From Ponticaulis sp. (GTDB lineage Bacteria; Pseudomonadota; Alphaproteobacteria; Caulobacterales; Hyphomonadaceae), in NCBI GenBank assembly GCA_002723155.1, contig PBNO01000003.1:234932-298931 (forward strand): a stretch of DNA of 64,000 nt, read 5' to 3'. How positions within the stretch are numbered: position 1 is the first letter of the stretch; the number at the start of each line of letters is the position of its first letter. Position numbers and translations under genes: made by a program. Under the pieces are notes generated by a model. That model made no database searches and was not told the DNA's origin. It saw only the letters and a list, made by a program, of their open reading frames with translations. Positions 10,431-15,554 of the stretch are shown here, in pieces.

Positions 10431-11046
10431 TCAAACCTTGGCAGTGCGAAGCTGCTTGCGGGACAGGCTTTTCACGCTGACGCCGTGTTGGGTTTTATCC
10501 CAATAGAATGGACGCACGATCAGCTCGTAGATCGCTTTGCCTGCCGCAATCGTCTGAAGAGGCCAGTAGAATGGCGCCGTGATCAGCGCCCGAATAGCGC
10601 CAGCCGATGCGAGAGCGCCGGACATGACGACTGACAGGATATGCACGCTGAAACCTGTCAGACAGAGGATGATTGCTTCTGATGGCGGCGTCAGGCCCGG
10701 CAGCATGGCCTGCGCAACAAGCCAGAGCGCGAATGGCCCGTGAAACACTGCTGATAATACAGAGCCGGACAGCAGCAATACGGCAGAGATGTAATTCTTT
10801 AGCCCCATCACCCTGATCCGTGAGGCTGGAGAGGCCCGGAAGAAGACACCCGCCGTCTGGATAAAGCCTTTCACCCAACGTGAACGCTGACCGATCCATT
10901 GGCGAAGGCCGATCGGCGCTTCTTCAAATGTTGGCGGAGAGATATGACCCACGCGATACCCCGCGGCGGCAAAGCGTAGGCCAAGATCTGCATCTTCTGT
11001 CACATTGTAAGGGTCCCAGCCGCCTACTTTCTCAAGCGCTGCGCGA
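10431..11046 (-). pseudogene. Processive family-2 glycosyltransferase, C-terminal half (disrupted)
   Basis: This is the 3' part of a glycosyltransferase gene interrupted by the IS1595-type element. It holds the catalytic TEDAD and QRSRW motifs (the third Asp and QxxRW of BcsA-like processive enzymes), followed by about three membrane helices. Joined to 14653-15554 after deleting the element and one 8-bp target copy, it reads in frame across GTSNHFDRAALEKVGG and gives an ancestral protein of 505 residues. The surviving ORF extends into the element (ATG at 11132), so a 233-aa protein with about 28 foreign N-terminal residues could be made. It lacks the donor-binding half and is probably inactive. 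Confidence 0.93.
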
Positions 11047-11054
11047 TCAAAATG
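11047..11054. repeat. Target-site duplication, left copy
   Basis: TCAAAATG immediately precedes the left inverted repeat and is repeated at 14653-14660. Eight bp is the duplication length typical of IS1595-family elements. Confidence 0.95.
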
Positions 11055-11079
11055 CGGACTTATGTAGCAAGCGCACCAA
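11055..11079 (+). repeat. Left terminal inverted repeat
   Basis: Twenty-five bp beginning CGGACTTATGTAGCAAGC are identical to the reverse complement of 14628-14652. Similarity stops after the CACCAA at the inner end. Confidence 0.97.
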
Positions 11080-11123
11080 ATTTCGGACTGCCAGAATAGC
11101 GCATTTTCTGCGACTCTGGCCAG

Positions 11124-11621
11124 ATGAAACATGAAACTCCACTAACCCGACACGGTAAGCTCAACCCGTCTAAAACAGAGACATACGAGCACACCATAAA
11201 CGGACTACTTACAAAGCGAGCTGACCTGTTCAATGAGGCTGAACGCCTGAGAGACAGGACAGCAGAGATAAAGAACGATGTAGCCGCTCTGGACCGCGTG
11301 TTAGCCACGCTAGGATATACCGGCGATCTCGACGCCATAATGCCACGGCAGAAGGTAACGCGCCTGTTTGGATCGGGTGAGCTTCTAAGAGCTTGTATGC
11401 AAGAGCTGCGTCACTCAGATGAACCACTAACTAGCAGGGACATTGCCCGAAACATCGTAGAGCTTCGTGGAGACGATCCCAACGACCGGAAGTACCTATC
11501 CGACATGACCCGCCGTATCTCAAAGTGTCTGCGTCAGGAACGCGCTGTAGGCTCTGTAAGGATGAAAGAGAAGCGCTCTGGTTGCGCGGTGTGGGAGTAT
11601 GTTGGGATTACAGGGAAGTGA
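11124..11621 (+). CDS. Transposon passenger: coiled-coil protein with a possible winged-helix C-terminus
   Basis: This 165-residue protein starts 45 bp inside the left repeat. Residues about 25-65 form a charged heptad-rich coiled coil (LTKRADLFNEAERLRDRTAE). About 85-155 have a helix-turn-helix-like pattern (LTSRDIARNIVELRG... SDMTRRISKCLRQERAVGSV) ending in a short beta-like tail. This resembles small winged-helix proteins that pair a coiled coil with a DNA-binding domain, but no family is firmly recognised. No strong ribosome-binding site precedes the ATG. It may regulate the element or assist transposition; neither is shown. Confidence 0.65.
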   Translation: MKHETPLTRHGKLNPSKTETYEHTINGLLTKRADLFNEAERLRDRTAEIKNDVAALDRVLATLGYTGDLDAIMPRQKVTRLFGSGELLRACMQELRHSDEPLTSRDIARNIVELRGDDPNDRKYLSDMTRRISKCLRQERAVGSVRMKEKRSGCAVWEYVGITGK

Positions 11622-11666
11622 TCGAAAATTTTTACTATCAAATTGATATCTAATTATGTTATGTAA

Positions 11667-11697
11667 ATACCCGGCGAACAAGCGCCGGGTATTTTTA
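11667..11697. terminator. Terminator inside the transposon
   Basis: ATACCCGGC-(8 nt)-GCCGGGTAT is followed by TTTTTATAG. It sits between the convergent passenger genes and has a T-run on the plus strand. Confidence 0.85.
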
Positions 11698-11726
11698 TAG
11701 GTATCAAATGTCAGGTGTTCCGCACA

Positions 11727-12011
11727 CTAATGGTGTACCGCTTCGAGAACGCCTTTCAGCCAATTCCCATTCGCTTCAGTGTGGCCAGTCCATGCCGCCT
11801 CGCCGGAGAGCTTACCGACGAACAGCTTATCATTTGAGTCAAGGCATCCTTGCAAGTTATCACGCACTTGTACGGCAGATGAGGCTGTGGAAATAATCCA
11901 CACCGATTCCTGCATGTGCCAATAAGTACCGTAGCCCTTGAGCTTTTTTGAGAGGCAATCGTACTTCTGCCCCGGCGCGTGAAGATCGTAAGATACGATG
12001 TACTTAGCCAT
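11727..12011 (-). CDS. Transposon passenger: Cas2/VapD-like (SinR-type) protein
   Basis: This 94-residue protein has a small ferredoxin-like fold pattern. It begins MAKYIVSYDLHAPGQKYD, with the first beta strand ending in the Asp that is catalytic in Cas2 and VapD nucleases. A WHMQESVWII strand and a DKLFVGKLSGEAAW strand follow. Proteins of this shape are usually annotated SinR-family or Cas2-like. There is no cas1 and no CRISPR array, so an adaptation role is unlikely. Its ATG shares one base with the stop of the upstream HTH gene (TAATG), so the two are translationally coupled. A toxin-antitoxin-like pair is a reasonable hypothesis. Confidence 0.75.
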   Translation of the reverse strand: MAKYIVSYDLHAPGQKYDCLSKKLKGYGTYWHMQESVWIISTASSAVQVRDNLQGCLDSNDKLFVGKLSGEAAWTGHTEANGNWLKGVLEAVHH

Positions 12012-12232
12012 TAAGCGGCCCTCCCGCGACGATAAAGCGCCGCCTCATATGCAGATGGATGACGCTTGAGGTTGATTACCTCGCTAATGCGCCCCTGATT
12101 CGTATCAAAGTGGGCCGCGATACGGCTCTGAAGCCATCCATCCCATTTCATAAACCAAACTTGAATTGCATCATCTTTGGTCAGGATACGAGATGGTTTT
12201 CCGCGCTCTGGCGGAGTGTCGAAAGTAGGCAT
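12011..12232 (-). CDS. Transposon passenger: small HTH protein
   Basis: This 73-residue basic protein contains a helix-turn-helix-like segment, SRIAAHFDTNQGRISEVINL (about residues 36-55). The ATG has an excellent AGGAGG site 7 nt upstream. Its stop overlaps the Cas2-like gene start by one base. It probably binds DNA and may regulate its own operon, as antitoxins commonly do. No named family was recognised. Confidence 0.7.
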   Translation of the reverse strand: MPTFDTPPERGKPSRILTKDDAIQVWFMKWDGWLQSRIAAHFDTNQGRISEVINLKRHPSAYEAALYRRGRAA

Positions 12233-12330
12233 GTAGTTGCCTCCTCTTATGAAGAGGCGGGGCTTGACACGGACTCACGCTCCTGTCATCCAAGTTGGAC
12301 AAGCTTGTGAATCATCCCCGCCTCGGGGTT

Positions 12331-12377
12331 ACGATTAAGAACCCGCACCGACCACGAATCAGTGCGGGTTCAATCGT
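12331..12377. other. Long hairpin between transposase and HTH genes
   Basis: ACGATT and GAACCCGCAC (12331-12348, with a 2-nt AA bulge) pair with GTGCGGGTTC and AATCGT (12362-12377), giving a 16-bp interrupted stem with a 13-nt loop. It lies just downstream of the leftward transposase gene. There is no T-run directly after it, so it may be a transcription attenuator, an RNA structure or a protein-binding site rather than a plain terminator. Confidence 0.6.
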
Positions 12378-12429
12378 ATTTGAGGCACAATTTACTATAA
12401 AAGTCGAATCCGATGTTCTTGCTTGGTTC

Positions 12430-13395
12430 TCAAGCCGCCGAACGCTGCCAGTACCCCGAAAAGTCGCGACTAACCGGCGCGCCCATAACGCCACGAACAA
12501 CAGTGGCAACAAGATTGCCGTTATCGACGCGGCGGTGATCTTCCAGCCATGCTGCGTGAGCAGCATATTGATGAAGATACTTGTGAGACACCCAATGGTG
12601 CTGACCGCGTACCATGCGACGAAGGCGAGAGAAGAAGCTTTCAGCGTTGTTAGTGTGTGTGCCTGAGAGGTCGCTATACGCTTCTTCGTGATTAATGCGC
12701 CCCATTGCGTAACCGCGATAGAGGTGGTCCCAGTGCGTAGCTTCATCGGCGTAGATGATTGAACCCGGCTTCACTGTACGCGCTACAATGTCCACGCCAT
12801 CAGCTTCGGTCTTCGTTACAAATGTAAGTGTGCGGCCTTTGCGCTCACGGATAGCAACAACGACGCGGCGCGTGCCTGTCTGGTAACGCTTACGGCGACG
12901 GTCTACGCGGTCTTTGCGCTGGTTCTTAGGGCGAATGTGACCGCCAAAATACGCTCCATCAACTTCGACTTCACCCGATACAGTACGGTTATCATATTCG
13001 TCAGACATAGACTCGCGAAGCTTATGGCAGAGCACCCAAGCTGTTTTGTATTGAACATCAAGCTCACGGCTCATCTGAACGGCTGATTTGCCTTTTGCTG
13101 AATTCACGAAAAGGAATACAGCGGCCAGAATGTCCATGAATTGAAGCTTGCGGCTCGCGAAGATCGTTCCAGACGTAACGGAGAACTGACGGTAGCACGC
13201 CTTGCATTTGAACTTGCGGCGCGTCGTGATCTTGTAAGTCTCACAGCATCCGCAGTCAGGGCAAACAGCTTCCCCGTCCGTCTCCGGCCAGCGGAGCTTG
13301 CAAAACGTCTCATACGCTTTGTCTTCACCAGCCCGGTAAATTCCGGTCAGTGAAAGCGTGCGAGCCGCTGCAGAAAGAAGGAAGTGTTGTGCCAT
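12430..13395 (-). CDS. IS1595-family (ISXO2-like) transposase
   Basis: This 321-residue protein appears intact. An N-terminal zinc ribbon (Cys45, Cys48, Cys64, Cys67) likely recognises the ends. It is followed by an HTH-like region and the ISXO2-type catalytic core, with Asp146 (VEVDGAYFGG), Asp217 (IYADEATHW) and the THTNNAESFFSRLRR segment carrying Asn250/Glu252. Family members move by a cut-and-paste or replicative DDE-type reaction and make 8-bp target duplications, as seen here. No frameshift or internal stop interrupts it, so the element may still be active. Confidence 0.95.
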   Translation of the reverse strand: MAQHFLLSAAARTLSLTGIYRAGEDKAYETFCKLRWPETDGEAVCPDCGCCETYKITTRRKFKCKACYRQFSVTSGTIFASRKLQFMDILAAVFLFVNSAKGKSAVQMSRELDVQYKTAWVLCHKLRESMSDEYDNRTVSGEVEVDGAYFGGHIRPKNQRKDRVDRRRKRYQTGTRRVVVAIRERKGRTLTFVTKTEADGVDIVARTVKPGSIIYADEATHWDHLYRGYAMGRINHEEAYSDLSGTHTNNAESFFSRLRRMVRGQHHWVSHKYLHQYAAHAAWLEDHRRVDNGNLVATVVRGVMGAPVSRDFSGYWQRSAA

Positions 13396-13408
13396 TGTCT
13401 ACGTTTGC

Positions 13409-13435
13409 GTTACCTATGTAACGTATATAGTACGT
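13409..13435. promoter_or_regulatory. Nested palindromes in the divergent transposase/DUF6471 control region
   Basis: GTTAC-(4 nt)-GTAAC (13409-13422) overlaps ACGTA-TATAG-TACGT (13421-13435), with further ACGTA copies just beyond. The cluster lies between the divergent transposase and DUF6471 genes and is a likely operator/promoter. The transposon's own HTH proteins are candidate binders. Confidence 0.45.
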
Positions 13436-13500
13436 AGACGTATCGTAATCAATACCTTATGTATCGTTTATGATACTTTTTCCTGCAAAGGCGTTACGTT

Positions 13501-13728
13501 ATGGCTGATCAGACCGAATGGGAAACCAAAGCTGCCAACCTTCTCAAGGCTGAATTGAAACGGAAGGGAATCACATATGCTGGTCTAGTAGAGAAGCTAG
13601 AAGGCATCGGCATATGCGAGAAGGAAGTGAACATCAGGAACAAGCTGAGCCGCGGGAAGTTCAGCGCGGCTTTCTTGTTGCAATGTATGAACGCTATAGA
13701 GTCTCAATCTTTGCGTTTGGATTGGTAG
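13501..13728 (+). CDS. Transposon passenger: DUF6471-type protein
   Basis: This 75-residue protein has the DUF6471 pattern: WETKAANLLKAELKRKG, then an HTH-like stretch ending NIRNKLSRGKFSAAFLLQC. It looks like a phage-repressor-type DNA-binding domain. The 3' end overlaps the start of the next passenger gene by 46 bp in another frame, suggesting translational coupling. Function is unknown for the family; a regulatory role is inferred from the fold pattern. Confidence 0.75.
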   Translation: MADQTEWETKAANLLKAELKRKGITYAGLVEKLEGIGICEKEVNIRNKLSRGKFSAAFLLQCMNAIESQSLRLDW

Positions 13729-14567
13729 GAATACTTCTAGTTATTGCAATAATTACAGCTCCGACAGAGCGAGAGTTACGTGACGAATATAGTAATCATT
13801 ACAATGAACAAACCTGTGAAAATTGGAAAAAGAGCTATAGCTTGGACCGGTGGTTTCCGCCCATAGTTTCGAGCTATATAGATTGCCAAGAGAGACAAAC
13901 AGGCCGCGAAGAATACCAATCCAATGAAAACACTATAGATCCATTTAATCCAATACCCATCGAATTGAGCGATCTCTTGGCTCAACGAAGAATGGCTCAC
14001 TGGACTGTATGGATTGCCATTTTCACAAGTATTGGCCTCGTGACACTTTTCTTCACCCTTCTTGAGGCCAACAAGACTGCTACTTTTGCTTTCAGAAGCT
14101 ACGAAGCGACTAAGGAGCAACTCGCTCCACAAATATACGTTGGTCAATCGAGCGTCATTGTAAAACTTGGTCCCGGTGAGCAAGCTATCGTCAATATGGA
14201 AATATCGATTGAGAACGCTGGAGCGACTATTGCGCGGGATGTTTCGTACCAAATTGAAGTTGCCCCAATTCCGTACATCGAAAAACTTTCTGATAATGAC
14301 GGCGTTATTTACACCAAAGGGGCGATAAATCGGTTTAATGTTTCTGCGGGAGAAACGTACCCAATTCAACTCGATTTCAAGCATCGGTTTTGGGATTTTT
14401 TTGTGGACGAAAATCGAACTAGCCCACGAGATATCAGAATAAGAGTATACCTCTCTTGGAGTGATTTCGACGGACGGAAAAAGTTGAACTTGATCGGAGA
14501 TGCCAGCTTGCAGGGCCTCCAAGGGAACCTTTGCCAAAGCGCAATTGGACCATTCGTAAAGAGATAG
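13683..14567 (+). CDS. Transposon passenger: two-TM membrane protein with extracytoplasmic beta domain
   Basis: This 294-residue protein starts at MYERYRVSIFAFG. The ORF is open further upstream, but that part only re-reads the DUF6471 gene. TM1 lies at about residues 7-28. A polar loop with two Cys (about 30-115) follows, then TM2 (about 118-140), then a beta-rich domain (about 165-285). The layout is common among uncharacterised proteins on prophages and genomic islands. The gene is markedly AT-rich compared with host genes. A 271-aa antisense ORF was rejected. No function is recognised; a surface or exclusion role would be speculation. Confidence 0.65.
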   Translation: MYERYRVSIFAFGLVGILLVIAIITAPTERELRDEYSNHYNEQTCENWKKSYSLDRWFPPIVSSYIDCQERQTGREEYQSNENTIDPFNPIPIELSDLLAQRRMAHWTVWIAIFTSIGLVTLFFTLLEANKTATFAFRSYEATKEQLAPQIYVGQSSVIVKLGPGEQAIVNMEISIENAGATIARDVSYQIEVAPIPYIEKLSDNDGVIYTKGAINRFNVSAGETYPIQLDFKHRFWDFFVDENRTSPRDIRIRVYLSWSDFDGRKKLNLIGDASLQGLQGNLCQSAIGPFVKR

Positions 14568-14627
14568 CATAACTATCAAAAATTTAATCATTTTGACGGG
14601 TCCCGAAATGGGAGCTCATGTCGGCGC

Positions 14628-14652
14628 TTGGTGCGCTTGCTACATAAGTCCG
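14628..14652 (-). repeat. Right terminal inverted repeat
   Basis: This is an exact reverse complement of 11055-11079 over all 25 bp. Confidence 0.97.
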
Positions 14653-14660
14653 TCAAAATG
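14653..14660. repeat. Target-site duplication, right copy
   Basis: TCAAAATG directly follows the right inverted repeat and is identical to 11047-11054. Confidence 0.95.
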
Positions 14661-15554
14661 ATTGCTCGTCCCACCCAGCATGACTGGCAGGCGGAGCGCG
14701 CTGAGCCCCGGCACGATCAGACCGAAATGGACGCGATATTCCTGGGTAAACTGGGCAGCGATCCAGCTCTCCCCGCTATTGTGCGGAATGAGCGGCGCCT
14801 GAACGCATGCGAGCGGCTTACCGCCTACCTCTTCGCGCGCAAACTGGAAGGCCCTCACTGCCTCTTTCAGCTGGGTTGAGTGCATGGCGTCTTCGGCATC
14901 GTAGACGGCGATCATCTGACCGGTCGCAAGCTTCAGTCCGAAATTGAGAGCGCGAGGCTTGGTCTGCACCTCACCTTCAGGCACGACGATCACTTTAAAA
15001 TATGGCCGCAATTTCAACTGCTCGATTGCCGCCAGCGTTTCAGTATCGCTCTCTTCCAGAAGAATAAAGATCTCCAGCTGGCGTTTCGGATAGTCGAGCC
15101 CTTTCAGCGCCGCGATCAGAGGCCCAATGGCTTCGGGCTCACGAAAGACGGGCACCAACACGCTATAACGCGGCCAGATAAATCGGCGCTTTGCACTATC
15201 ACCCGTGAACGGAGACGCTGTGCGCGCAGCAAAGCCCGCGCAAAGCAATACGCATCGATAGATGATCAGCAGGCAAAATGCGGAGAAGGCCAGAGCACTG
15301 ACCGCGGAGAACAGCCCCATCGGCACCAGCAAAACACCCACACCCAGAACCGCGGCGATTTGTTTCACCAACGTCTTCTGAGCTGCCGTCACGCCTGTCT
15401 TACAGCTGGCTTCAGGATTAGCTTCGAGAAGATCATTTTCTGCGCCGAAACGGAGCCATTCCAGATAGGCCGCATCATAAAGGTCAGCTTCATGCGCGGC
15501 ATCGCCGGTCCGAAGACCGGCGGTTAAACCGTCATTACCCCACCCGTCAGCCAT
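14653..15554 (-). pseudogene. Processive family-2 glycosyltransferase, N-terminal half (disrupted)
   Basis: This is the 5' part of the split glycosyltransferase. It has a soluble N-terminal stretch (about residues 1-60), two membrane helices (about 65-115), and the GT-A start YSVLVPVFREPE with the DxD-type YDAEDAM motif. The reading frame runs into the transposon and stops after four foreign codons (304-aa ORF, 14640-15554). The third Asp and QxxRW motifs are on the other side of the insertion, so catalysis should be lost. The intact enzyme probably polymerised or transferred a sugar at the inner membrane, perhaps for exopolysaccharide. No other polysaccharide gene lies nearby. Confidence 0.93.

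Follow-up and report, generated by a model that had tools for sequence, protein, structure and literature searches.

The window analysed here is a 64,000-nucleotide stretch of a Ponticaulis sp. genome (contig PBNO01000003.1). Its subject is a 3598-bp insertion sequence (IS) of the IS1595 family at positions 11055-14652, which interrupts a glycosyltransferase (GT) gene and carries a small gene, here called C1, whose product we propose to be a selector of the insertion site. The features needed first are these, in window positions:

11047-11054: TCAAAATG, the left copy of the duplicated 8-bp target, at minus-strand codons H-F-D of the GGTSNHFD stretch in the GT gene
11055-11079: left terminal inverted repeat, 25 bp
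14628-14652: right terminal inverted repeat, 25 bp
14653-14660: right copy of the 8-bp target duplication
10431-11054, minus strand: C-terminal part of the interrupted GT2 gene (PF13632)
14653-15554, minus strand: N-terminal part of the interrupted GT2 gene (PF00535, PF13641)
11124-11621, plus strand: C1, proposed target selector, 165 aa, the left-end gene, with a predicted long helix (residues 22-62) and winged helix (86-159)
12430-13395, minus strand: IS1595 family transposase, 321 aa, an open reading frame (ORF) without interruption (PF12762, PF12760, NF033547)
13501-13728, plus strand: DUF6471 protein of 75 aa, its gene oriented divergently to that of the transposase (PF20075, E 6.6e-30)

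The transposase matched PF12762 (DDE_Tnp_IS1595) with 131 bits, PF12760 (Zn_ribbon_IS1595) with 44.6 bits and NF033547 with 161.1 bits (cutoff 75), and beside it the element has five further credible genes. Both 25-nt ends are 100% complementary to each other and are flanked by the same 8 bp. Excision in silico of the element and one copy of the duplication yielded a GT2 frame of 505 codons, and two sister genomes, G082 (N-terminal half of the GT 96% identical) and G080 (90%), have the gene as an open frame of 511 codons, with the insertion site unbroken (loci L115 and L116). The family affiliation, the exact bounds, the gene content and the restorable target had all been put forward in an earlier, sequence-only reading of this DNA, and they stand. 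So does its view of a young event: the insertion is recent. The N-terminal half of the GT had a match at E<=0.001 in 92 of 105 genomes of the family, several of these matches being weak and probably to other GT2 genes. The element is present once in the 3.84-Mb genome, where the only other match was that of its two ends pairing with each other.

Relatives and their insertion sites

Relatives were collected by a transposase scan of genome contigs, which gave 63 loci, and by searching whole genomes for the element or for PF20075, the DUF6471 profile, which added more. A first set comprises 56 of the 104 loci examined, the window element included; in each of them family ends enclose a transposase on both sides and the 8-bp duplication is perfect; elements with mismatched duplications (such as L038, L046, L048, L049, L074 and L160) and unbounded elements were left out. 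A second set was drawn from 80 later loci, 52 of them with a transposase and 43 bounded with at most one mismatch; removal of four duplicates left 39 new elements. The 95 bounded elements measure 2346-6976 bp (median 3742). Relatives with the same ends were found at other sites and with other duplications, an observation that the sequence-only reading had named as support for mobility. It had also called this much cargo uncommon for IS1595 elements, which is not supported, at least in this subgroup: 94 of the 95 are at least 2.5 kb long, and ISs with passenger genes had already been described with the IS1595 family. At L055:3711-8807 the right flank runs into a second element end, and two elements seem to lie in tandem there. 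In genome G046 (contig C1, positions 2591644-2592564), one 27-nt element end accompanies a weak DUF6471 match, under the cut-off, and no detected transposase; this is probably a decayed copy.

The gene order of the subgroup is C1, variable cargo, transposase, DUF6471 and, often, a membrane protein. C1 is present in 56 of 56 first-set elements. In the new set it was found in 35 of 39 with the first hidden Markov model (HMM) and, in divergent form, in the other four with a second HMM; it is short or split in L315 and L318. DUF6471 occurs in 55 of the 56 and in all 39 new elements, the latter by construction since that set was sought through PF20075. The membrane protein, family C3, had an HMM match in 26 of 56 first-set elements.

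Almost half of the bounded elements (47 of 95) lie in three genes, GT (17), comM (22) and nfrB (8), and nearly all of these are placed base-exactly. At the site that we call GT-A, 12 of the 56 first-set elements, from hosts of several families, occupy one base of a GT2 gene, the duplication starting with the His codon of its GGTSNH stretch; protein matches support both flanks in 11 of the 12 and one flank in L039. Three elements (L032, L033 and L052) sit at LDYP of the same gene, the GT-B site, and L155 and L064 each occupy yet another position within it. In comM, identified by TIGR00368 for L173 and L061, both sets together place nine elements at EALEVSM (comM-1; L296 has the same base position as the others) and 13 at FLDELPEF (comM-2: L040, L154, L172, L173, L175, L178, L267, L284, L289, L293, L299, L301 and L319). 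The eight nfrB elements have protein matches on both flanks, the target of L060 belonging to the NfrB family; five share the L060 site to within 3 bp, and L297, L298 and L303 lie about 70 bp upstream. L304 and L306 are 3 bp off the other elements at their nfrB site; this shift and the subsites were read by eye from the contexts, whereas the identity of the gene comes from the protein matches.

Other recurrent sites are outside these genes. Three elements are at tRNA 3' ends (L272:5487-5494 and L308:5525-5532, both tRNA-Gln, and L311:2915-2922, tRNA-Trp), and in all three the final 2 nt of the tRNA gene are part of the duplication. The transposases of these three are divergent. An intergenic AAATATC repeat, in most cases with CCGGGGG-like sequence after it, is hit at a common base by six elements (L264, L316, L324, L330, L332 and L336), and two further elements are in a gene that, from its motif, we take to be HNH-like.

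This choice of site, common to unrelated hosts, had escaped the sequence-only reading, and it is C1, not 'non-standard cargo', that would explain it. That reading had proposed that a young insertion would be refuted if distant relatives had this element, with diverged ends, at the same site. Diverged relatives do occupy the same site, but we read the site as chosen and not the insertion as old. An ordinary cargo-bearing IS1595 element that fell into the GT gene by chance would fit the anatomy of the element, but with eleven further elements at the same GT base in other genomes we give this explanation next to no credence.

The supply of targets does not decide the site either, because the three genomes checked that have a GT-A insertion (G000, G053 and G025) possess a whole comM, and G080, one of the genomes in which comM is split by a comM-2 insertion at profile position ~304-309 (with G014, G022, G098 and G009), retains a whole GT gene with its GGTSNHFD site. 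Two candidate determinants in the DNA were rejected. Codon bias at the target was one: the His codon of the GT site is CAT in 11 of 12 occupied versus 17 of 25 empty genes, no clear difference. The other was an inverted repeat of 14 nt close to the right end of the window element (14586-14599 and 14650-14663), which pairs an internal copy with target plus end. As a guide to the target it failed, since over 41 elements matches to an element's own target were not enriched relative to other pairings, although the window's own match was among the best (2 of 40 others were as long). The repeat falls where an ORF on the minus strand starts, and we judge it a coincidence with start-codon context.

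Insertion site and C1 kinship

The site goes with kinship of C1, and not with that of the transposase or of DUF6471. On first-set trees with five site classes (30 labelled of 56 rows), the labels changed 4 times on the C1 tree, where the minimum is 4, compared with 8 times for the transposase and 10 times for DUF6471. With both sets and nine site classes (55 labelled of 91 rows), C1 required 9 changes (minimum 8), the transposase 20 and DUF6471 26; means for shuffled labels were about 36 in these trees (36.2 for the transposase). L155 was labelled in the first-set test and, as a single, unlabelled in the second, and L336, at the repeat site, is absent from the trees, as its C1 was detected at a later stage. 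C1 clades have sites of their own: codons N-H-F of the GT2 gene for the clade of the window element, and for others two sites in comM, two in nfrB, tRNA 3' ends and the intergenic repeat.

One alternative is that the transposase itself sets the site and C1 is a regulator that travels along. Kinship of the transposase does have some predictive value: as an indicator of 'same site' among the 30 labelled first-set rows, transposase identity gave an area under the curve (AUC) of 0.82, and its 20 changes are well below the shuffled mean. C1 identity, however, reached an AUC of 0.997 in the same rows and 0.950 in the 55 rows of both sets. In approximately unbiased (AU) tests on the transposase data, a single clade was rejected for comM-1 (p 5e-47), comM-2 (p 2.5e-48) and GT-A (p 0.0017); it was not rejected for GT-B (p 0.24). 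Natural swaps point the same way. L041 and L042 are 98% identical in the transposase, 96% in DUF6471 and 25% in C1, and their sites differ. L304 has a transposase 95% like that of the comM element L063, but its C1 is nearest to that of L060 and it sits in nfrB. Conversely, L045 and L152, with transposases 57% and C1 proteins 71% identical, share the same comM base. We consider control by the transposase unlikely. From the sequences, C1 genes have evidently been exchanged between elements, with a change of target accompanying the exchange.

The association could also be one of physical linkage, if recombination in settled elements had replaced the transposase half and left C1 and the site together without any function of C1 in targeting. 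The position of the gene would suit this, as C1 starts within 90 nt of the left end in 46 of 56 first-set elements and 31 of 35 new ones. Insertion, however, is free in orientation (first set: GT-A 8/4, comM-1 4/4, comM-2 4/2, GT-B 1/2), so each of the four first-set classes with at least three members contains both orientations, C1 abuts either flank, and it is therefore not merely linked to one of them. In addition, all 56 first-set duplications are perfect and one class spans hosts of different families, and we hold linkage to be highly improbable.

A further possibility is that insertion is random and that losses of GT, comM and nfrB are seen because they benefit the host or the element, through less transformation or phage resistance. 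NfrB, the family hit by L060, is a component of the phage N4 receptor. Selection may add to the choice of site, as at least eight distinct sites fall within these three genes. For comM, PMC11472951 describes frequent inactivation by mobile elements in Acinetobacter and suggests that its loss may protect such elements. Selection for gene loss nevertheless leaves the single base per class, the tRNA ends, the intergenic repeats and the tie to C1 unexplained, and as a full account we give it very little weight.

The new elements provided a separate test. A C1 was readable with the first model in 35 of them, and for 22 of these the first set contained a C1 at least 40% identical; in 14 of the 22 the neighbour's target gene was already known. 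The nearest C1 gave the right gene in 11 of the 14; the nearest transposase gave the right gene in three (L267, L296 and L303), a wrong one in six and no class in five. By class, C1 was correct in 2/2 for comM-2 (L267 and L319), 1/1 for comM-1 (L296) and 7/7 for nfrB through L060, with four elements no more than 3 bp from the L060 site and three at the upstream site, and in 1/4 for the HNH-like gene through L050 (L326). The nfrB and HNH groups were named once the contexts were known, L060 and L050 having already been fixed as nearest by script; nfrB was checked by protein matches.

AlphaFold2 (37 sequences) gave a model of C1 with a mean predicted local distance difference test (pLDDT) score of 87.3, and Foldseek ranked DNA-binding proteins of the Fur family first, with E 0.006 or worse. 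C1 of the window had no Pfam match. A DNA-binding fold is predicted. We propose that C1 is a target selector, a DNA-binding adaptor that recruits the transposase, and from the sequence comparisons and the model we put the probability of this at roughly 0.8. The transposase, as is known for the family, would recognise the ends and catalyse the cut and the insertion that leaves the 8-bp duplication. C1, probably a dimer held by its long helix, would bind specific target DNA through the winged helix and bring the transposase there.

Several observations weigh against this proposal. In or beside the C1 clade of GT-A, L034 and L169 are inserted elsewhere; L153 (comM-1 clade) is next to a gene for a TraI-like helicase, L147 (GT-B clade) next to a MatE gene, and L179 (comM-2 clade) and L275 and L317 (repeat clade) are likewise at other sites. 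L149 and the two elements L321 and L333, whose C1 proteins are 73-74% identical to that of L149, have three different targets, and the sites of L029 and L030 differ with C1 80% identical. No site-class label is attached to 36 of the 91 tree rows, and support for the classes in the C1 tree is moderate (GT-A 86-90%, comM-1 94-96%); in the larger tree comM-2 and both nfrB subsites are not single groups, although nfrB overall is one (99%). In the test on new elements, L316, L330 and L332 were predicted wrongly through L050 (C1 42-45%), and eight of the 22 had a nearest C1 with no recurrent site and did not share its target: the five nearest to L144 were at comM-2, and the remaining three, two with L149 as neighbour and one with L028, had targets of their own. 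Over all 22, the target gene was common with the nearest C1 in 11. A specificity region was sought in C1 and no part stood out, and Foldseek returned no match to the C1 model at E<=0.001. C1 proteins at other sites may be selectors that tolerate secondary sites or have drifted; because of them, our claim is limited to a strong tendency.

Cargo and comparison with known systems

The remaining genes of the window element are the following:

11727-12011, minus strand: Cas2-like protein of 94 aa, encoded in the variable cargo slot (PF09827, 24.1 bits, cutoff 23.8)
12011-12232, minus strand: 73-aa protein, one-base overlap with the Cas2-like gene, no Pfam or NCBIfam match
13614-14567, plus strand: fast-evolving membrane protein of the C3 family, probable start 13683 (HMM and alignment; no Pfam match)

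A minus-strand reading of the right-end gene (an ORF of 271 aa) was rejected, since the plus-strand C3 family is conserved. DUF6471, encoded divergently from the transposase, may be its regulator.

The slot between C1 and the transposase holds exchangeable genes, several of them defence-like. Among 41 elements analysed gene by gene, no family has more than four members once the core and the membrane protein are set aside. The 122 non-core candidate ORFs, a rough count as some are alternative frames, include Panacea/SocA (4 members), DUF3892 (3), DNA methylases, KilA-N, an IrrE-type peptidase and other matches to defence lists. In the window element the slot encodes the Cas2-like protein. It scored 16 bits with TIGR01573, below the cutoff of 24.5, and matched Cas2b of PADLOC with E 1e-6; its AlphaFold2 model (pLDDT 71.5) had Cas2 proteins as top Foldseek matches (best E 0.0055). 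It thus resembles the CRISPR adaptation protein Cas2 in its modelled fold and in a Pfam match just over threshold, and what is supported is its fold. Unlike in a CRISPR adaptation module, the six scanned proteins of the element had no Cas1 match in Pfam or NCBIfam, no regular repeat array was found within the element, and the gene adjoins the 73-aa partner, possibly a helix-turn-helix protein. Relatives of these two genes recur as a pair in the cargo slot of L035, and the pair could be a two-gene defence or toxin-antitoxin unit.

Siguier, Gagnevin and Chandler reportedly described the IS1595 family in 2009 together with members that carry passenger genes ('transporter IS'). Two sources agree with the present elements, giving passenger-gene ISs within this family (PMC3129680) and a family target duplication of 8 bp (PMC8101967). 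The window subgroup shares with IS1595 family ISs the transposase domains, the 8-bp duplication, the inverted repeats and the passenger genes. It differs from those described in its conserved C1 and DUF6471, its hypervariable cargo slot and its base-exact, C1-linked choice of site. No report of a selector or of site specificity in IS1595 elements turned up in the literature searched, whose coverage left out most subscription journals.

Dedicated target selectors are known in Tn7-like transposons, and ordinary DDE ISs are mostly treated as loosely specific. As in Tn7-like elements with TnsD/TniQ or TnsF, a dedicated and exchangeable protein appears to choose a conserved site here, and the cargo is defence-like; PMC8649781 describes Tn7-like cargo as rich in defence systems. 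In contrast to Tn7-like elements, the window subgroup has an unrelated, single-gene DDE transposase and an 8-bp duplication, and the six scanned proteins of the window element had no match to TnsA, TnsB or TnsC-type genes in Pfam or NCBIfam. Its selector would be a small helix-winged-helix protein, and its target motif is split, in either orientation. From these sequence data we think it likely that the subgroup represents a second, Tn7-independent origin of dedicated targeting, in which a fast-diversifying, exchangeable winged-helix selector re-aims the same transposase to at least nine base-exact site classes, and swapping a gene of ~150 codons would retarget the element. If so, modular targeting guided by a protein has been acquired by a simple IS-type transposase, and many natural selectors of ~150 aa with known sites can be compared. 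comM would then be the target of a further, unrelated kind of element, which sharpens the question of why mobile elements break the same few genes.

There is a parallel with TnsF. The comM-2 duplication begins two codons after FLDE, which we take to be the Walker B motif of comM, and the site thus adjoins that motif. PMC10293859 describes modular target selectors in Tn7-like elements and, for TnsF of Tn6022 and Tsy, the need for a 10-bp region in the Walker B motif of comM. Unlike TnsF, C1 is modelled as a helix and a winged helix, with no domain of the tyrosine-recombinase type. Unrelated transposons appear to have converged on one motif of comM.

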